The notes under the pieces were generated by a model, which was not told where the DNA came from, ran no database searches, and worked only from the letters and a program-made list of their open reading frames with translations. Both the position numbers and the translations under genes were made by a program. Shown piece after piece: positions 4,157-17,166 of a stretch of 42,967 nucleotides of DNA. Source of the stretch: a virus. Position 1 is the stretch's first letter. The number at the start of each line of letters is the position of its first letter. Location: the IMG/VR virus record IMGVR_UViG_3300020215_000086, positions 1-42,967 of that record; one strand, 5' to 3'.

Positions 4157-5959
4157 ATGGAATATCTGGACAATCGCCCGCGCATTCCAGCGAAGATCAA
4201 ATCCATAACTCCAACCACCGGTCGAGCGAAGCAACCGATAGTCCGGATTAACTTCGAGCAATTCGATGCGCCAGCTTATCTCCGCGGCCGCCTCGTCAAG
4301 TTCGCAAGCGATCTTCACGTTGGCGACTGGTGGATTGTCTCAACCAGGCTTCGCGCCGAAGACCCTTCTTTCTGGAGTGAAGCTTATCTCGTCGAACCAA
4401 CACAGGAACCTGAAACAGTGAACCCCACGCAGGAACAACTCGCAATCGGCGAAGCCGCCAAGGGCACCGCTAACCTCATGATTAAGGCTCTCGCCGGCAC
4501 AGGCAAGACCACCACCATCAGCACCCAAGTCGTGCCCAACCTTCCACCGACCACCTCGTCCATCCTCGCTCTGGCCTTCAACAAGAAAATCCAGGAAGAA
4601 CTCAAAGCCCGCCTCCCCGTGCGAATGCCCTGGGGCGCGGAGCTCAAGGTCCAAACCCTCAACGGCATGGGCCACGGCGCTTGGTGGAGCTTTACCAAAC
4701 GTAGTGACCTTCAAGTCGACGGTCGAAAGTCCACCAATCTTCTCAAGCTCGTCTGTGCGGACATGAATGTCAGCCTCTCGAAGGAAGAGTTCGGAGCCGT
4801 CAACGACCTCGTCGCCGCAGCGAAAGCCCTGGGCTTCGTGCCCAATGGCATCAGCTTACGAACTTACCCCGTGTTCAAAGACAACGAGGAAGGCATCGAG
4901 GCTGTCTTCGATTGGGCCGAAGTCGATTGGCGCCACGATCTTGAAGTCCTCTTCCGCGCAGCACTCCAACGCAGCATCAACGAGTGTCTACGCAACGGAC
5001 TCATGGACTTCAACGATCAAATCTACATGCCGATCATCTTCGGCGCGCCGTTCCGTAAGTTCCACACGGTCATTGTCGATGAGGCCCAAGACCTTAGTGA
5101 CCTCAACCACCGCATGATACTCAAGGCCGTAGGTTCTCGCCTGATCGTGGTCGGCGACGAGAACCAAGCGATCTACGCCTTCCGCGGAGCACTGAGTGAC
5201 TCGATGGACCGGCTACGAGCCTCGCGGGAGTTTGTGGAGCTTCCGCTGACGATGACCTTCCGCTGCGCCAAGGCTATCGTCGCTCGGGCTCAAGCCTACG
5301 TTCCCGAGTACATCGCTGCACCGGGGAATCCGGAGGGCATCGTCGAAGAATGGCCCATTGACCTGACCATAGACGACGAGAACAGGTCAGGGCAGAGTTG
5401 GTCGAAAGGTGACGTTCCCAATCACTCCGCCATCATCTGCCGCAACAACGCTCCGCTCATCTCCCTGGCCTTCAAGTTCCTCCGCCAGGGGCGCGGGGTC
5501 CGCATGCTCGGCAGCGACATCGGACGCTCACTGGAGCGCGCGCTCGAACAGGCCTGCAAGCGCATGGCTCCTGACACGGCTTCACCTCAGGTTGCCGTCG
5601 CAGTTGACGTCTACTTCAATAAAGAGCTCGCCAAGGCTAAGACCGACCGCAAAAAGGACAGCCTGCAAGACCGCTGGGAGTGCGTCCGCGCCATCGTGGA
5701 CAACTCCGCTACGCTCCGTGAAGCCAAGGCCACATGTCACAAGCTCTTCGAGAACCCCGACGCCGTTGTCACGCTGTCCAGCGGCCATAAAGCTAAGGGC
5801 CTAGAATGGGACACTGTGATCCACCTGGACCCGTTCAGGATTCCGAGTCGCTTCGCCACCGGACCGGAGGCGCTGAAGCAGGAATATAACTTGCGGTACG
5901 TGATTGAAACTCGCGCGAAGACCAGACTGATTCTGGCGAACTTGGAGGACTTTCGATGA
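4157..5959 (+). CDS. UvrD/PcrA-type SF1 DNA helicase with extra N-terminal domain
   Basis: 600 residues. A superfamily 1 ATP-dependent DNA helicase: Q-motif NPTQEQ at about 89-94, Walker A ALAGTGKTT at 111-119, Walker B VDEAQD at 307-312, motif III VVGDENQAIYAFRGA at 331-345, and C-terminal motifs V (SSGHKAKGLEWDTV) and VI (YVIETRAKTRLILAN). It should unwind DNA during phage replication or recombination. Residues 1-88 are an additional strand-rich, possibly OB-like domain (RIPAKIKSITPTTGRAKQ, then GDWWIVSTRLR) not part of the usual UvrD core. The start at 4157 has AGGA upstream. An upstream ATG at 4135 opens another frame that stops at 4251. Downstream genes follow by ATGA overlap. Confidence 0.9.
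   Translation: MEYLDNRPRIPAKIKSITPTTGRAKQPIVRINFEQFDAPAYLRGRLVKFASDLHVGDWWIVSTRLRAEDPSFWSEAYLVEPTQEPETVNPTQEQLAIGEAAKGTANLMIKALAGTGKTTTISTQVVPNLPPTTSSILALAFNKKIQEELKARLPVRMPWGAELKVQTLNGMGHGAWWSFTKRSDLQVDGRKSTNLLKLVCADMNVSLSKEEFGAVNDLVAAAKALGFVPNGISLRTYPVFKDNEEGIEAVFDWAEVDWRHDLEVLFRAALQRSINECLRNGLMDFNDQIYMPIIFGAPFRKFHTVIVDEAQDLSDLNHRMILKAVGSRLIVVGDENQAIYAFRGALSDSMDRLRASREFVELPLTMTFRCAKAIVARAQAYVPEYIAAPGNPEGIVEEWPIDLTIDDENRSGQSWSKGDVPNHSAIICRNNAPLISLAFKFLRQGRGVRMLGSDIGRSLERALEQACKRMAPDTASPQVAVAVDVYFNKELAKAKTDRKKDSLQDRWECVRAIVDNSATLREAKATCHKLFENPDAVVTLSSGHKAKGLEWDTVIHLDPFRIPSRFATGPEALKQEYNLRYVIETRAKTRLILANLEDFR
4420..4437 (+). repeat. 18-bp direct repeat, copy 2 (inside helicase)
   Basis: Second identical copy, in frame inside the helicase gene, encoding VNPTQEQ immediately before the Walker A region. 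The two copies bracket the extra N-terminal domain. Confidence 0.85.
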
Positions 5960-6126
5960 AGGATCGCGAGTTCCTCAAGTGGCTTCACGCAAGGCTTGAA
6001 TATGTTCATAAGGAAAATCCCATCGTGGACTATATGTGGAAGCTACGGGCTGTAATTGCTGCCACGCCTGAAAGCCAAGAAACACCTAATATAGACCACT
6101 CAAAAGAAAGGCTTGGAATAGAATGA
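5956..6126 (+). CDS. Small conserved phage protein
   Basis: 56 residues, ATGA overlap with the helicase stop. The N-terminal two thirds, FLKWLHARLEYVHKENPIVD then YMWKLRAVI, match a small helical family common in phages of proteobacteria ('FLxWLxxRLxxVxxExxxVDxxxxLRAI'). No known function. The stop overlaps the next start. Confidence 0.6.
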   Translation: MKDREFLKWLHARLEYVHKENPIVDYMWKLRAVIAATPESQETPNIDHSKERLGIE

Positions 6127-6302
6127 AATTCTTCGGCACCCACAACGGCCGCATGATCGTGCTCAACTCTGAAGACGAAGTCACCAGCTATCACGCCCGC
6201 GCCATCGGGCAAATGCTCGGCTTCGAAAAGGTTCGCCAAAAGCATGAGGAGGTCACCGACGATCCTAGTGCTGATTGGGAGCGGGAACAGGAGGACTACT
6301 GA
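6123..6302 (+). CDS. Small protein of unknown function
   Basis: 59 residues (begins MKFFGTHNGRMIVLNSEDE, ends EREQEDY), overlapping both neighbours by a few bases. Strand-turn-strand start followed by a helix and a strongly acidic tail. The next ATG shares the last base of the TGA (TGATG). Confidence 0.55.
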   Translation: MKFFGTHNGRMIVLNSEDEVTSYHARAIGQMLGFEKVRQKHEEVTDDPSADWEREQEDY

Positions 6303-6547
6303 TGCCCGGCCCCGGCTACATCCGACCGAAACTCTACCACTGGCGTGTACTCTTCGCCCCTTGGCTCGACGTGATCCGTCGATTCCAGGGTCGAGACACT
6401 GTACGCGACTGGCTTGATTGGGCAACCTCTCACGCCGAGCCGCACGGCCTAGAAGGGGAAGTCGAATACACCTTCTGGCGCGTGTTTCTAGGTGGCTACC
6501 ACCCCAGCATATGCGCTGATTGGGCACTGGAGGATTGGGATATCTGA
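6302..6547 (+). CDS. Tryptophan-rich small protein
   Basis: 81 residues from the ATG at 6302 (TGATG overlap). It holds eight tryptophans in segments such as LYHWRVLFAPWLDVIRRF, VRDWLDWATSH and FWRVFLGGYHP, and ends in DWALEDWDI. Not clearly a membrane protein, because charged residues alternate with the aromatics. Unknown function. Confidence 0.55.
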   Translation: MPGPGYIRPKLYHWRVLFAPWLDVIRRFQGRDTVRDWLDWATSHAEPHGLEGEVEYTFWRVFLGGYHPSICADWALEDWDI

Positions 6548-6855
6548 TGAACCTCTATCTAATCTCTCAATTCATCAACCGCAACTACTACACCTACGAT
6601 TCCGCTGTTGTAGCTGCACCAGATGAAGAGGCTGCTCGAAACACGCATCCGGGTCCTTACGCTTATACTTGGGGAACCTGGACGCGCTGGAATGGTGACG
6701 AGATCGTCGGTTGGGGAATCCTACGCGAAGGACAACAGTTCACCGAAACCGATTATCCTTGCACATGGGTTTCCCCCGAGCACGTCACTGTCGAGCTCAT
6801 CGGCACCACCGATCGGGAGGCTGGAGTAATCTGCGCCAGCTTTAACGCGGGATGA
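6547..6855 (+). CDS. Conserved phage protein, YDSAVVAA family
   Basis: 102 residues from the ATG at 6547 (TGATG overlap). N-terminus MNLYLISQ followed by YYTYDSAVVAAPDEEAAR, then TWVSPEHVTVELIGT and VICASFNAG at the end. This 'YxLISQxxNxxYDTYDSAVVAAxDExxAR ... WxxPxxVxVxxIGxA ... VIxASFNAG' pattern belongs to a small beta-rich protein frequent in phages and some bacteria, function unknown. Confidence 0.7.
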   Translation: MNLYLISQFINRNYYTYDSAVVAAPDEEAARNTHPGPYAYTWGTWTRWNGDEIVGWGILREGQQFTETDYPCTWVSPEHVTVELIGTTDREAGVICASFNAG

Positions 6856-7142
6856 TGCTCGACGACCTCGGCCAAACGCTAGCCGTTGCGCAAGCCGATC
6901 TCCTCTGGCTTCGCAACTACAACGAGACCGACGACGAGTACTTCGCTCGACAGGGTATGCGTGTCCGTCGAGGCTTCCTCGCTTGCGTGCAAGAGCTTCC
7001 AACGAAAGGTCGAAGGCGTTTCCTTCGCGTTGGCTACGGTTGGGACCCGCTACCATCCGAAGCTCTGCGAAAGGCCATTGCCGAGCTAAATTCAACCACC
7101 GTGAAAGTCTATCACACAACTTTGGAGGACCTAGGACTATGA
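6852..7142 (+). CDS. Hypothetical protein
   Basis: 96 residues beginning MMLDDLGQTLAVAQADLLWLR, ATGA overlap with the previous stop. The body is basic in the middle (VRRGFLACV, TKGRRRFLRVGYG) and ends in a helix-strand pattern (LRKAIAELNS, VKVYHTTLEDL). No family recognised. Confidence 0.55.
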   Translation: MMLDDLGQTLAVAQADLLWLRNYNETDDEYFARQGMRVRRGFLACVQELPTKGRRRFLRVGYGWDPLPSEALRKAIAELNSTTVKVYHTTLEDLGL

Positions 7143-7315
7143 GCTATCGTGCAATGATACACTACAAAAACGATGAGGAAGTCTACGGCGATGAGTTCGA
7201 AGATTTTTGGGAAGCTCTTGACGATCTGCGTGAGCTCTTAAATAAGGAAGTCACGAGCGAAGAAGGCTTTGATCCCGAAGACGTTGAGTATATCCAGGTG
7301 GAGCACGTAGCCTGA
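7139..7315 (+). CDS. Small acidic protein
   Basis: 58 residues from the ATG at 7139 (ATGA overlap). Very acidic (EVYGDEFEDFWEALDDLREL, EEGFDPEDVEYIQVEHVA), predicted strand-helix-strand. Such acidic miniproteins are sometimes DNA mimics or inhibitors, but nothing here proves that. Confidence 0.55.
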   Translation: MSYRAMIHYKNDEEVYGDEFEDFWEALDDLRELLNKEVTSEEGFDPEDVEYIQVEHVA

Positions 7316-7635
7316 TGCCCCATCCTCGTGAAGCCACCGCGTATCTCGACCTGATCGAGGGTATCCTCGAACCAGCGCTCGACACCCAGGGCAAACGCAT
7401 CACGTGCCTCACTCCCGGCGATGCGTTCTCCCTAACCAAGCGTCTGCAAGCGGCGGTCAAAGCCATCCGCAAGCGGAACTCTGAAATCTACCCCGAGACC
7501 CATCCCATGTGGGGCAAGTCTGATTACGACAAGCTCGTAATCCGACAGCGCGACTGTGTGGTGGAAGTCCGGCCAGCAAGAGGAGACAATCTCGAAGAAA
7601 GACTCAACGTTGTGATAGAGGACATCATCGAATAG
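7315..7635 (+). CDS. Hypothetical helical protein
   Basis: 106 residues, TGATG overlap. Two helices (ATAYLDLIEGILEPALD, AFSLTKRLQAAVKAIRKRN), a central HPMWGKSDYDKLVIRQRD segment and a C-terminal amphipathic stretch (LEERLNVVIEDIIE). No motif recognised. Confidence 0.55.
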   Translation: MPHPREATAYLDLIEGILEPALDTQGKRITCLTPGDAFSLTKRLQAAVKAIRKRNSEIYPETHPMWGKSDYDKLVIRQRDCVVEVRPARGDNLEERLNVVIEDIIE

Positions 7636-12249: not shown

Positions 12250-12260
12250 CTACGGAAGGT

Positions 12261-12278
12261 GGGGGGCTTCGGCCCCCC
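12261..12278 (+). terminator. UUCG-tetraloop hairpin
   Basis: GGGGGGC (12261-12267), loop TTCG, GCCCCCC (12272-12278): a very stable seven-pair stem 12 bases after the stop of the binding protein. No T-run follows, so it may be a partial terminator or a 3' stabiliser. A near copy lies at 34225-34242. Confidence 0.6.
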
Positions 12279-12285
12279 TCCAACC

Positions 12286-13917
12286 ATGCATAACACTACC
12301 ATACTTCTTAACTACATTCGACGATACGGAGCTTTCTCAGAGCTCGATGTAGTTAAGACGTTTGGCATGCCAAGGGGTACACTCTGGTGGCTGTATAAGT
12401 CAGGTCAGCTGACACGATTCAAGTTCGACGGCCGCTATCTCTACTGTTTGCATCATCAACTCCCAGGGGCTCCAATGAAAACAACTGAAGTAGACATTTC
12501 CCTCATTGTCGTGCCGGAGGATCGCCAGCGTGAAGACCTCGGAGACATTGAGGAGCTTCGCCAGTCGATTGCTAACGCAGCCAAGGCCCGAGGCGTTAGG
12601 TTCCAAGACGGCCTGATTAACCCGATTTTGCTTTCCGGGCTGACGCTAGTTGCAGGTCAACGACGACTCGAGGCCCACAAGCTTGAAGGCGTCACCACGA
12701 TCCACACTATTGATTGGGCCGACCTTCCTGAAGAGGATCGAGAACTCCTCGAATACGAAGAGAACGCAAAGCGTCAAAACTTGCATTGGGCGGAGCGCGC
12801 CAAGGCTGTACAGCGCATCCACAAAGCCATGCAGAAAAAGAATCCCAAGTGGTCGGCCGTTGATACGACTCGATATCTTGGATATAAAGTACAGAAAGGC
12901 GGCAAAGGTGCCGGCAAAGAGGTTCCGGCCATTGCAATTCAACAGGCTTTAGCTCTGGATGGACTCATCAATGATAAGCTCGCCAAGGCTCCGACCCTTG
13001 AGTCGGCCTACAACACAGTTGCACGAGTCCAGCGCAGAGCGTTCGCGGATATTACAAACGAGATTCTGGCAGGACCAAGCGTTGCTCCTGTGTCAGACCC
13101 TGTGCCAAAAAGTGGGAGTTCGACTGGAGTCCGGGATGCTGTTCTTGCCTCGGGGCATGTGTCAACAGTGTCCGCTCCGAGTACCGATAAGCCCACCGTG
13201 TCTGTCGAGGCTGTCGTTCAAGGAGACTTTCTTGAATGGAGTGCCAGTTATTCTGGCCCAAAGTTCAACTTCATCCATTGCGATTTCCCCTACGGGATAA
13301 ACATCGACTCCTCCGATCAAATGCGCCACGACAACGAGAAGCTCTACGGAGATTCCGAGGACATCTACTGGGCGCTCTGCGAAGCCTTCATGAAGAACCT
13401 GGATCGCTTTGCGTACCCCTCGTGCCATGTGATGTTCTGGTTCTCGATGGAGAAGTACATTGAGACGATTCAGTTCTTTGAGAAACACTCAGAGAGTACC
13501 GGCCTCGTGTGGCAACGTAAGCCACTTGTTTGGCACAAGTCTTGCGGCAGCGGCATGGTCCCCGACCACCGACGGCGCCCTCGCAACACCTATGAAGTTG
13601 CCCTCATCGGTGCCCGGCAGGATCGCTTTATTCACAAGCCCGTCGCGTCGTCATACTCCTGTCCAGTAGCCTCAAAGCGGCTTCACCCGAGCGAAAAGCC
13701 GGTGCCGATGCTTTCCCACTTCTTCGAGATGTTCGTGGACAGTGAAACCTCGATGCTTGACCCAACAGCTGGAGGCGGGGCTGCGCTTCGCGCTGCCGAC
13801 GCTATGGGAGCGAAGCGACTGATCGGTGTGGAGCTCGATCCACAATTCGTCGCCGTGGCAAACGCGGAGCTTCGCAAAGCCCGTGCGCTGCGCAAAATCA
13901 GCGAGAAGCTGACATGA
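12286..13917 (+). CDS. HTH-ParB-DNA methyltransferase fusion
   Basis: 543 residues from the ATG at 12286. Residues 1-60 look like a winged helix (ILLNYIRRYGAFSELDVVKT, RGTLWWLYKSGQL). Residues 64-200 are a ParB/Srx nuclease-like domain: INPILLSGLTLVAGQRRLEA and EENAKRQNLHWAERAKAV. Residues about 310-543 are an amino-methyltransferase: catalytic motif IV reads DFPYG at 333-337 (usual DPPY), HPSEKP near 467, motif I DPTAGGGAALRA near 490 and GVELDP. Motif IV before motif I fits the beta class of N6-adenine/N4-cytosine enzymes. Probable role is DNA modification to evade host restriction. The ATG at 12475 with AGGGG upstream is an alternative start lacking the winged helix. Confidence 0.83.
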   Translation: MHNTTILLNYIRRYGAFSELDVVKTFGMPRGTLWWLYKSGQLTRFKFDGRYLYCLHHQLPGAPMKTTEVDISLIVVPEDRQREDLGDIEELRQSIANAAKARGVRFQDGLINPILLSGLTLVAGQRRLEAHKLEGVTTIHTIDWADLPEEDRELLEYEENAKRQNLHWAERAKAVQRIHKAMQKKNPKWSAVDTTRYLGYKVQKGGKGAGKEVPAIAIQQALALDGLINDKLAKAPTLESAYNTVARVQRRAFADITNEILAGPSVAPVSDPVPKSGSSTGVRDAVLASGHVSTVSAPSTDKPTVSVEAVVQGDFLEWSASYSGPKFNFIHCDFPYGINIDSSDQMRHDNEKLYGDSEDIYWALCEAFMKNLDRFAYPSCHVMFWFSMEKYIETIQFFEKHSESTGLVWQRKPLVWHKSCGSGMVPDHRRRPRNTYEVALIGARQDRFIHKPVASSYSCPVASKRLHPSEKPVPMLSHFFEMFVDSETSMLDPTAGGGAALRAADAMGAKRLIGVELDPQFVAVANAELRKARALRKISEKLT

Positions 13918-14777
13918 TCGGAACTCGCGTTTGTCCTCACTCTGACAAGATATGCGACTACGGTATAGACTGTCCCTATACTTGCGCCACAGGCAGGTAT
14001 GACGGTAATAAACGAGTTGCACATCGCATGTGCCCTGATCTTGTCAAATGCCCCTCTAGTCCTCAATGCGAAGAAGGCTTTCTATGCCACCGTGTTGCCC
14101 TATCGGAAAACCTGATGCAAAGATCATACTCATTGGAGAAGCTCCAGGTGAAGAAGAAGAACGACTCGGGCTTCCGTTTCAGGGCGCCTCCGGCCAAGAG
14201 CTCGCCCGTTGTCTCAATGAAGCTGGATTCTCCGTCAGCTTCTCGGATCGAAGAGACTCTCAAGAACGACGCACCCCTGCATGGGATACCTCTCCCTTCC
14301 ACGTGCTTAACGTATTTCCTGAAAGACCTCCAGATAACGCTCTGGAGCAATGGCAAGTGGGTCGAAAGGAAATACCAAGCACATATGATCTTCCACCAAT
14401 GGCTAAAGGTCGATTCCTGCGGCCCGACAAGTGTCATCATGTCCACGCCCTACACGATTACCTTTCCACTCTTAAGCCCAACCTCATTGTCGCGGTTGGT
14501 GGAGTTGCTCTCTGGGCTATTACTGGAACGTACGGTATTAAGTCGTATCGCGGGAGCATTGTACCGTCGAGGTTTGGAAAAGTCTTACCAACCCTTCACC
14601 CCGCCGCAATTTTGCGATCTTGGTCGGATCGACCAGTCCTTGTGGCTGACCTTGCGAAAGCACGATTTCACGGTGAGTTTAGCGGCTACAATCGGCCTTC
14701 CCGCCGTATTCTCATTCGCCCGACCATTGAAGAGCTTCTCGCCTTCGAGCGTGATTACCTCGCAACCGCCTCGTTAA
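13914..14777 (+). CDS. Cysteine-rich protein; 3' part overlaps the next gene
   Basis: The ATG at 13914 overlaps the methyltransferase stop. The first 58 residues carry eight cysteines (7, 14, 20, 24, 40, 46, 52, 58), the last four exactly six apart, typical of a metal-binding module. The frame has no stop until 14777, but from about 14084 it lies out of frame over the UDG-exonuclease gene, where its composition loses protein character (Ser/Leu-rich). So only about 13914-14090 is well supported; the real product may be 287 residues, or a minus-one frameshift may join the cysteine module to the UDG domain. Confidence 0.45.
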   Translation: MIGTRVCPHSDKICDYGIDCPYTCATGRYDGNKRVAHRMCPDLVKCPSSPQCEEGFLCHRVALSENLMQRSYSLEKLQVKKKNDSGFRFRAPPAKSSPVVSMKLDSPSASRIEETLKNDAPLHGIPLPSTCLTYFLKDLQITLWSNGKWVERKYQAHMIFHQWLKVDSCGPTSVIMSTPYTITFPLLSPTSLSRLVELLSGLLLERTVLSRIAGALYRRGLEKSYQPFTPPQFCDLGRIDQSLWLTLRKHDFTVSLAATIGLPAVFSFARPLKSFSPSSVITSQPPR

Positions 14778-15175
14778 TCTCCACCGACGTCGAGACTTCT
14801 CATGGACAGATCACCTGTGTCGGGTTCGCTCCTAACCACAATCTGGCTTGTGTTATTCCTTTTTGGGATAGCAGTCGGCCTGACGGTTGCTATTGGGAAA
14901 ATGCAAAACTCGAATTCCAAGCTAAATCAGTGGTTAAACGAGTGCTTGACTCCCCCGTGCCGAAGCTCTTCCAAAACGGAATGTACGACATTCAATACTT
15001 CCTCCGAGAAGGGATGCAGGTACGTAATGCTATCGAGGACACTCTCATAAAGCAGCACGCACTGTTTCCAGAGCTATCAAAATCGCTCGGCTTCCTCGGC
15101 TCGATCCACACAGACGAGCCGGCTTGGAAGCTCATGCGCCGGAACAAAGCCGACACGGTGAAGCGAGATGAGTAG
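14084..15175 (+). CDS. UDG-like domain fused to N-part of PolA 3'-5' exonuclease
   Basis: 363 residues from the ATG at 14084 (GAAGAAGG upstream; an ATG at 14066 has none). Residues 10-190 resemble family 4 uracil-DNA glycosylases: GEAPGEEEERLGLPFQG at 18-34, VAVGGVALWAITG near 137-148 and LHPAAILRSW (His172). Residues about 205-363 are the start of a DNA polymerase A proofreading exonuclease: Exo I STDVETSH (Asp235, Glu237) and Exo II FQNGMYDIQYF (Asn298, Asp302), ending SKSLGFLGSIHTDEPAW...DTVKRDE. Exo III is missing; it is in the polymerase gene at 15505. SPO1-type polymerases have UDG, exo and pol in one chain, so this is the N-terminal half of such an enzyme. Confidence 0.85.
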   Translation: MPPCCPIGKPDAKIILIGEAPGEEEERLGLPFQGASGQELARCLNEAGFSVSFSDRRDSQERRTPAWDTSPFHVLNVFPERPPDNALEQWQVGRKEIPSTYDLPPMAKGRFLRPDKCHHVHALHDYLSTLKPNLIVAVGGVALWAITGTYGIKSYRGSIVPSRFGKVLPTLHPAAILRSWSDRPVLVADLAKARFHGEFSGYNRPSRRILIRPTIEELLAFERDYLATASLISTDVETSHGQITCVGFAPNHNLACVIPFWDSSRPDGCYWENAKLEFQAKSVVKRVLDSPVPKLFQNGMYDIQYFLREGMQVRNAIEDTLIKQHALFPELSKSLGFLGSIHTDEPAWKLMRRNKADTVKRDE

Positions 15176-15518
15176 GACCTGCCAACAAGAAGGCTGTGGC
15201 CGGCGTTACTACGCTCGGGGCCGCTGCGAACATCACTACAAAATGTTTCGTCAGTCTCCAGAGTTCGAGCGCCAGGGCGTTCAAAGCTCCCTCGAGCTTA
15301 CGACCTTCGGCGAGAACGTCAGGCTGATCCTGGAAAAGCGTGGCTGCACTATGACAGCGCTAGCCCGCCGAGCTGGAATCGACCGTGCGGTGCTCTTCCG
15401 TGCGATCTACAAGACCTCGATGTCCCCGAAGCTGAACTCTCTCCAGTTTATAGCGGACGCTCTTGAGATTCCTCTGTGGCAACTTTTGAAGCCGGAGGCC
15501 TTCAGTGCCCTGGATTGA
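15168..15518 (+). CDS. Zinc-finger plus XRE helix-turn-helix protein within polymerase
   Basis: 116 residues. Starts at ATGAGTAG, overlapping the stop of the exonuclease part by eight bases; its own stop overlaps the polymerase start. Residues 4-24 (CQQEGCGRRYYARGRCEHH) have the CxxxxCx(n)CxxH layout of the small zinc finger that precedes many HNH homing endonucleases and phage regulators. Residues about 45-110 are an XRE/Cro helix-turn-helix (FGENVRLILEKRGCTMTALA, then RRAGIDRAVLFRAI). No HNH or GIY-YIG catalytic site is present. It may be a transcription regulator, or a remnant of a mobile gene that split the polymerase. Confidence 0.75.
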   Translation: MSRTCQQEGCGRRYYARGRCEHHYKMFRQSPEFERQGVQSSLELTTFGENVRLILEKRGCTMTALARRAGIDRAVLFRAIYKTSMSPKLNSLQFIADALEIPLWQLLKPEAFSALD

Positions 15519-17166
15519 CACCGGACAACTTACCCAAGACGACTACATCGAGGACGGGAAAAACGAACCTACTCCGCTCGACGTCATGACGCAGTACTGG
15601 CTGTACAATGGCCTCGACTGCGCAGTGACCTGGGAAGTCAACACCGCCCTCGACCGCATTCTCGACAAGTACCCCGAGTGTCAGCTCATCTACAAGTTCG
15701 AGCGCGCTATGCAAGCGCCAGCTCTCGATATGATGCGTCGGGGCTTCAAGGTCGATCAGCACTGGCGCGCAGAAATGATCGACGAGGTCGGGGCGGAGTT
15801 AAAGAAGTACGAAGGTCGGCTCAACGCCTTAGCGGAAGTAATCTGGGGTCGCGAGCTCAACGGGCGAAGCCCGCCGCAACTGAAAGCCTTCTTTAAGGAC
15901 TGGCTCCGCATCCCCATCCCCATCACCCGGAAGAAGGGCGAGGAAAAAGAATCCCTCGACCGCAAAGTCCTGGAGAAACTCTATGAGCAGTACTTCTATG
16001 CCAAGCCAATCATTTCGCACATCCTGGCAATTCGAGATAAAACAAAAACCCTGGGGACACTTCGAACCGGCATTGACAGTGATGGTCGATTTAGAACTTC
16101 GTTCAACGTCGCAGCAACTGAAACTGGACGATGGAGTTCAAGCGAGAATGCGTTCGGTACTGGAGGAAACCTTCAGAACATTACTGAACGAATCCGACGC
16201 ATGTTCATTGCAGATGACGGTTATAAGCTCGCGTACATTGACTTGGAGCAAGCCGAAGCCCGAGTAGTCGCTCTCCTAGTCTACGAGTGTCTCCTCCGCA
16301 TGGAAGCCTGGTGCGCCGCATTTGGCTTTGAAGTTCCCGCAATCTGTTCAGCAAAGGAACTCTATCTCGACGCCTGTGAGTCGGGGGACTTGCACACAAC
16401 GGTAAGCATGCTCACGTGGCCCGAGTTGGGTTGGTCCACAGATGAAAAACCTCTTGCTAATGACGGGAATCACCTCGCATACAACAGGCGAGTCGCTGAC
16501 GATTCCAGCCGCCCATTCTACCGAGACTTTACTTATCGCGATATTGCTAAGCGCCTGGGTCACGGTAGTAATTACCGTGGCTCTCCTTTTGGTATCGCTC
16601 AGGTCGTCGGGAAGATCGAGGCGAAGATCGTTGAAGCGTTCCAGAAGAAATACTTCGCCGCCTTCCCAATCGAGTCCTGGCACAAAGACGTAGTCGAAAA
16701 GGTACAGCTTTATGGAGTCATTACAACTCCCCTTGGTCGGCGGAGGCAATTCTTCGGACGACGATACGAGGATGCTACTCACAGAGAGGCGATTGCTTAC
16801 CAACCTCAGTCGATGGTTGGCGACCTCCTCAACCTTGGCCTATGGCGAATTTGGAACCACTACAAGGGTTCGAGAGAGGCGCAGCTTCTCGCCCAAATCC
16901 ACGACGCCGTAGTTATCCAATACATAGATAACCCTGCAATCGAGAAAAGGGTCATTGAGACATGCAGTCGTCTGATCCAGACGCCAGTCCAACTTGGCCA
17001 GCGTACACTAACAATCCCTAACGATGTGAAGGTCGGGTGGAACTTCGCCAAAGCCGACCCCAAGCTGTTCGCCGACGGCAACCCCGACGGCCTCAAGAGT
17101 TACAAGGGACAAGATGACAGACGCCGGTCAAAGGCGCTTGGATTACTGGATCGACCGATTCGTTGA
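15505..17166 (+). CDS. Family A DNA polymerase, C-part (Exo III and polymerase)
   Basis: 553 residues from a GTG at 15505 with GGAGG upstream. Residues 31-43 (YWLYNGLDCAVTW) contain Exo III (Tyr34, Asp38), so the exonuclease active site is completed only with the upstream protein. Then come TGRWSS (207-212), motif A YIDLEQAEAR (Asp246), motif B RDIAKRLGHGSNYRG (Arg345, Lys349, Tyr357; His replaces the usual Phe) and motif C QIHDAV (His466, Asp467; Ala replaces Glu). This should be the replicative polymerase. The last 53 bases overlap the helicase start. Intact palm and finger motifs suggest it is active, presumably in complex with the 14084 product. Confidence 0.9.
   Translation: MPWIDTGQLTQDDYIEDGKNEPTPLDVMTQYWLYNGLDCAVTWEVNTALDRILDKYPECQLIYKFERAMQAPALDMMRRGFKVDQHWRAEMIDEVGAELKKYEGRLNALAEVIWGRELNGRSPPQLKAFFKDWLRIPIPITRKKGEEKESLDRKVLEKLYEQYFYAKPIISHILAIRDKTKTLGTLRTGIDSDGRFRTSFNVAATETGRWSSSENAFGTGGNLQNITERIRRMFIADDGYKLAYIDLEQAEARVVALLVYECLLRMEAWCAAFGFEVPAICSAKELYLDACESGDLHTTVSMLTWPELGWSTDEKPLANDGNHLAYNRRVADDSSRPFYRDFTYRDIAKRLGHGSNYRGSPFGIAQVVGKIEAKIVEAFQKKYFAAFPIESWHKDVVEKVQLYGVITTPLGRRRQFFGRRYEDATHREAIAYQPQSMVGDLLNLGLWRIWNHYKGSREAQLLAQIHDAVVIQYIDNPAIEKRVIETCSRLIQTPVQLGQRTLTIPNDVKVGWNFAKADPKLFADGNPDGLKSYKGQDDRRRSKALGLLDRPIR

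Follow-up and report, generated by a model that had tools for sequence, protein, structure and literature searches.

A phage family A DNA polymerase encoded in two genes, with the break inside its proofreading exonuclease

The divided polymerase locus and its relatives

The window analyzed here is a stretch of 42,967 nucleotides from the virus record IMGVR_UViG_3300020215_000086 (IMG/VR). It encodes a family A DNA polymerase with a DEDDy exonuclease, for which all residues of Exo I, Exo II and Exo III and of the polymerase motifs A, B and C are present, distributed over two polypeptides (Table 1). The order of the domains, uracil-DNA glycosylase (UDG), exonuclease and polymerase, is that of SPO1-type enzymes, which are single chains, unlike the enzyme of the window.

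Table 1. Genes and domains of the divided polymerase locus in the window
Feature	Position	Strand	Content	Profile match
N half (putative N subunit)	14084..15175	+	family-4-like uracil-DNA glycosylase domain and exonuclease core	Pfam UDG; PHROG 17, 472-805
Intervening gene, 116 aa	15168..15518	+	zinc knuckle and Cro/C1 helix-turn-helix	Pfam HTH_26; PHROG 5351
C half (putative C subunit)	15505..17166	+	Exo III helix, then complete polymerase domain	Pfam DNA_pol_A; PHROG 17, 802-1232

The three open reading frames lie where the original prediction, made from the sequence of this genome alone, had placed them, and the catalytic residues that it had assigned to each half are also found there. Two ATG codons, at positions 14066 and 14084, are candidate starts of the N half, and the latter is the better one, since a Shine-Dalgarno match (AAGG) is found 6 nt upstream of it and none in front of ATG 14066. 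With numbering from 14084, Exo I corresponds to D235/E237 and Exo II to N298/D302, and the protein ends with the tail WKLMR....DTVKRDE. The C half starts with GTG, preceded 6 nt upstream by its own Shine-Dalgarno sequence (GGAGG), and carries Exo III as Y34/D38 in YNGLDC, followed by intact motifs A, B and C. The middle ORF shares 8 nt with the end of the N half and 14 nt with the start of the C half. The profile of PHROG family 17 (DNA polymerase) matches the two halves end to end, and they are thus consecutive pieces of one protein with nothing missing. The ORFs and this profile together bear out the claim that the residues of one exonuclease are parted between two polypeptides with a third gene between them. 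Judging from the sequence, the break lies in the loop preceding the Exo III helix. Upstream of the locus, positions 12259-13917 form one ORF whose N-terminal part matches ParB-like partition proteins and whose C-terminal part matches an N6/N4 DNA methylase.

What had first been seen as an oddity of one genome is an old trait of a whole clade: the split itself stands, but its isolated status does not. The same break is found in the cultured and completely sequenced Caulobacter phage Kuura, with two other small genes in the gap. Profile scans of IMG/VR yielded 85 loci, in each of which a script located both halves and checked for one open frame. At 90% identity, the loci that are split and show both halves fall into 49 clusters, the window and Kuura included, and the identity between these clusters is 32-89% (median 43%), while 17 more distant relatives have the fused form. 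A further scan, seeded with polymerase-domain peptides only, returned at least 596 confirmed relatives; the set analyzed consisted of the best 80 of these together with 16 loci from bacterial metagenome-assembled genomes, and all 79 loci showing both halves were split. The two sets share some contigs, and their counts are therefore not additive; the same split is present in more than 100 other contigs besides the window and Kuura. Contigs of metagenome-assembled genomes gave no matches in the first scan, and in the second five loci with both halves of the split form, plus distant relatives. Scanning viral contigs with the polymerase of the window alone gave no matches, and two-sequence alignments with Kuura were used instead. 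In a comparison with 50,697 named phage records, the polymerase halves of two members and the N half of one had Kuura as their top hit; those further named relatives that were examined were either fused or split at another place. The phage group with the split is large and mostly uncultivated.

In a tree of 59 concatenated sequences, from which the junction columns were excluded, one branch (SH-aLRT 91) separates all split forms from the rest, the window and Kuura are sisters (support 95), and no reversal to one chain is seen. Cellular Pol I is fused, as are the outgroups, and the fused form is therefore taken as ancestral. The split thus appears, from these sequence comparisons, to have arisen once and long ago, the support of 91 for the single-origin branch being less than full. 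Order and strand of the two halves are constant among the split loci, whatever the gap content.

Exonuclease residues, chain ends and predicted fold

The alternative that survives best, although an unlikely one, is that the products of the two genes have ceased to make up a single exonuclease, the C half being a proofreading-deficient polymerase and the N half a lone glycosylase/nuclease or a decaying remnant. The halves are indeed separate genes with their own starts, and phage PolAs that have lost their exonuclease exist, as passages of a 2024 survey of 6,560 phage PolAs report (PMC11348598). However, the Tyr and Asp of Exo III, which a lone C half could not use, are invariant on the polymerase gene. 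As a control for bias, the motifs on each half were scored in loci fetched with seeds from the other half: Exo III was intact in 27/27 loci fetched with N-half seeds and Exo I/II in 31/31 fetched with C-half seeds. A regular expression applied to the polymerase-seeded set recovered Exo III in 79/79 loci, Exo II in 78/79 and Exo I in 77/79, the exceptions to Exo I/II being L147, in which the N half is itself in two pieces, and L187, where the contig end cuts it. Decay would have erased these residues at such divergence. Two independent enzymes are thus disfavored, since the polymerase gene carries an invariant Exo III.

L085, which shares its contig with L147, has a further break within the N half (6001-7454), leaving the polymerase in three pieces: a UDG ORF ending ..RIYPNAI is followed by about 350 nt with a helix-turn-helix-like ORF and then by an exonuclease ORF that begins at Exo I with M-AIDIET. 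Note also that the glycosylase motif GEAPG reads GEAWG in the relative L044 and GDCPT in Kuura, and the activity of the UDG domain may have been lost in part of the split clade.

Both new chain ends are conserved. The N half stops 12-18 residues past an invariant WK in nearly all loci, and its end is mostly K-R/K-D-E, as in the KRDE noted at the outset. That this tail is selected as a Shine-Dalgarno sequence is disfavored, since its Arg is encoded by AGG and CGN alike (AGG 12, CGN 14, AGA 1); this codon usage suggests that the peptide, and not a ribosome-binding site, is under selection. The C half starts 20-25 residues ahead of the Exo III Tyr in most loci, with an M.II.T motif, and 33 residues ahead of it in the window.

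Joint modeling was carried out on L044, in which 135 nt separate the N stop from the C start and the frame is the same, and which could therefore be read through its stops as a tethered chain. The alignment contained paired rows of other split loci together with read-through and C rows, and the phage-record row was left out. The chain predicted by AlphaFold2 has a mean pLDDT of 85.6 and a pTM of 0.81; the N tail and linker (351-406), including the conserved KRDE tail, are disordered, and beyond them the model shows a short strand (410-413) and the Exo III helix (426-451). The best Foldseek match is Klenow (8oo6; also 1kfs), with a TM of 0.75 normalized to Klenow over 705 alignment columns, beyond what the C half alone could supply, for a model that is a single chain with an artificial linker, made by a program that has seen Klenow. 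When the C half alone was modeled with the same rows, the strand was gone and the mean confidence around Exo III was about 74, compared with about 91 in the tethered chain, most of the rest being little changed. The Exo III segment is thus predicted to be better defined with the N half present, and the models fit docking of the head of the C half and its Exo III helix on the N half.

The junction as an insertion slot

The gap from N stop to C start ranges from -4 nt (an ATGA overlap) to about 2.8 kb, and in ten lineages of the first set it is at most 2 nt. In the close relatives L063, L072 and L069 it measures -4, 142 and 621 nt, respectively, and homology ends at or just before the N stop and restarts at or just after the C start. 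On the plus strand, 183 junction ORFs were found in 130 loci, the largest family being present in 41 loci and 72 ORFs being singletons; the cargo is mostly unrelated between lineages. Its families include DUF7768/DUF1937/DUF4406 (related to nucleoside deoxyribosyltransferases), MazG, Endonuclease VII and HNH_3.

The third gene seen between the halves in the window is thus real, and it is one of many unrelated, replaceable junction genes. Its N-terminal zinc knuckle resembles the one in a phage HNH family (PHROG 5351, matched only at positions 6-43 of 171) and its C-terminal part is a Cro/C1 helix-turn-helix, without a nuclease core; it is not of the Aeh1 nrdA type, with an endonuclease gene between the halves; among the other junctions, a few contain HNH or Endonuclease VII genes. 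A role as required third subunit was rejected, as no homologue was found at the other examined junctions and ten lineages have practically no gap. The gene is replaceable cargo, outside the polymerase proper.

The deoxyribosyltransferase-like DUF7768/DUF1937 gene recurs at the junctions of 41 loci (e.g. L021, 2093-2431), directly 5' of the polymerase half in nearly all cases and usually touching its start codon, and was apparently acquired several times. It was considered as the original insert and rejected: parsimony requires 11 changes and places it as absent at the ancestor. For the junction as such, parsimony makes the filled state ancestral, with eight changes since, and the split may conceivably have begun with an insertion there. 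In L069, a 64-aa junction ORF (4373-4567) ends with GPWWPEGTDTIKRDE, a partial duplicate of the N-half tail, and adjoins an Endonuclease VII gene; the duplicate looks like a footprint of cargo entry.

An intron, an intein, or programmed frameshifting or bypass could in principle still yield one contiguous chain, the first two having been named beforehand as findings that would overturn the split. Such elements are common in phage polymerase genes, and the relative L041 has an intein elsewhere, in its polymerase half: this C half (from locus 5974) is 808 aa long, its motif B being interrupted by about 300 aa that resemble an intein (..KRGGHA / CVTGDHEVLTRGGW ... KISVTGN / SNYG..). However, the window contains no match to an Rfam intron family, and no slippery heptamer is present at either junction; the gap varies freely in length, reaching about 2800 nt, its contents are unrelated, and some lineages have nothing but an ATGA overlap of the two ORFs. 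Moreover, a Shine-Dalgarno match of at least 4 precedes the C start in 29/65 loci, against 40/325 control positions, and the two new ends are conserved in the manner of protein termini. A chain rejoined by intron, intein or recoding is thus disfavored and must be regarded as very improbable. Sequencing or assembly error, for which one could only argue that the window is a single metagenomic virus record, is excluded by the same break in Kuura and in the many other contigs.

A proposed two-subunit replicase and known split systems

Most probably, then, the two genes encode two subunits of one UDG-exonuclease-polymerase A replicase, in which the proofreading site is built in trans. Both subunits would be translated from one gene cluster with fixed end points. 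The exonuclease core, with Exo I and Exo II, and the glycosylase-type domain would come from the N subunit; in the C subunit, the Exo III helix would be the first large folded element, ahead of the entire polymerase domain. The subunits would dock non-covalently, so that the Asp/Glu of Exo I, the Asp of Exo II and the Tyr/Asp of Exo III form one metal-binding site and the enzyme proofreads. The stop-start junction would be a slot in which unrelated small genes are gained and lost, occupied here by the zinc-knuckle/helix-turn-helix gene. A natural split enzyme that must reassemble, as proposed in the original prediction, is thus the best-supported reading, favored by the clade-wide split, the conserved residues and the Klenow-like joint model, with reassembly and proofreading being what we infer from these.

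A further and doubtful idea is that the split is adaptive, assembly through the ratio of the halves, or through proteins encoded in the slot (nucleotide-processing, MazG, DNA-binding), tuning proofreading and making the mutation rate shiftable. If this were true, the junction would be a regulatory and gene-capture locus within the replicase genes.

The proposed arrangement would mean that throughout a large clade of phages one catalytic site has been kept as a composite of residues from two independently translated proteins, and that selection acts on both new chain ends. It offers a natural system in which to ask how polymerase and proofreading parts meet, whether proofreading can be titrated, and why the replicase has not been re-fused. 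It also corrects annotation: with the N half of Kuura annotated as 'hypothetical', a polymerase lacking a complete proofreading domain is what surveys would record for phages of this kind.

Phage polymerases that are split have been reported before, whereas the break site and the spread found here appear to be undescribed. No description of a break inside the exonuclease site was found in the open-access literature, a scope outside which most subscription papers fall, and passages of the survey cited above describe none either (PMC11348598). The closest known system is Kuura, whose genes 026-029 (OQ067476.1; PMC9959647) share with the window the break, the gene order and tail residues, and differ in the gap genes; the polymerase passages of the Kuura paper make no mention of the split. 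Unsplit UDG-exo-PolA enzymes (ctMlz233, MW202489; Microcystis phage Mel-JY34, PP438425; SPO1 type) have the domain order and motifs of the window in one chain, with a loop of 15-20 residues where the split forms have their two new ends.

Other divided polymerases are broken elsewhere. In Vibrio phage vB_VspS_VS-ABTNL-3 (MF497422), a related UDG-exo-PolA is encoded in two ORFs (L008, 2956-6090) with a small overlapping ORF of 185 aa between them, and the break is in a palm loop after LQNLP, outside the exonuclease. In most of the MEP401-type OM43 phages, PolA is likewise encoded in two ORFs separated by a small ORF of unknown function, the exonuclease is whole on the first ORF, the break is inside the polymerase domain, and the authors suspect an intron (PMC10580990); in the window, by contrast, the break is ahead of Exo III and the C half holds DNA_pol_A.

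That split phage enzymes can work in pieces is known from the NrdA of Aeromonas phage Aeh1 and from gp43A/43B of phages 25 and 44RR, essential enzymes in two polypeptides that are still functional or co-purify, the gp43A/B of Aeromonas phage 25 doing so with activity (PMC2988022). These are a ribonucleotide reductase and a family B polymerase, unlike the family A enzyme of the window, and at the Aeh1 and phage 25 breaks there is a homing endonuclease gene, whereas the intervening gene of the window is without a nuclease core. Relative to these known splits, the novelty lies in where the break is, in its apparently single and ancient origin, in the very large size of the clade and in the cargo slot.
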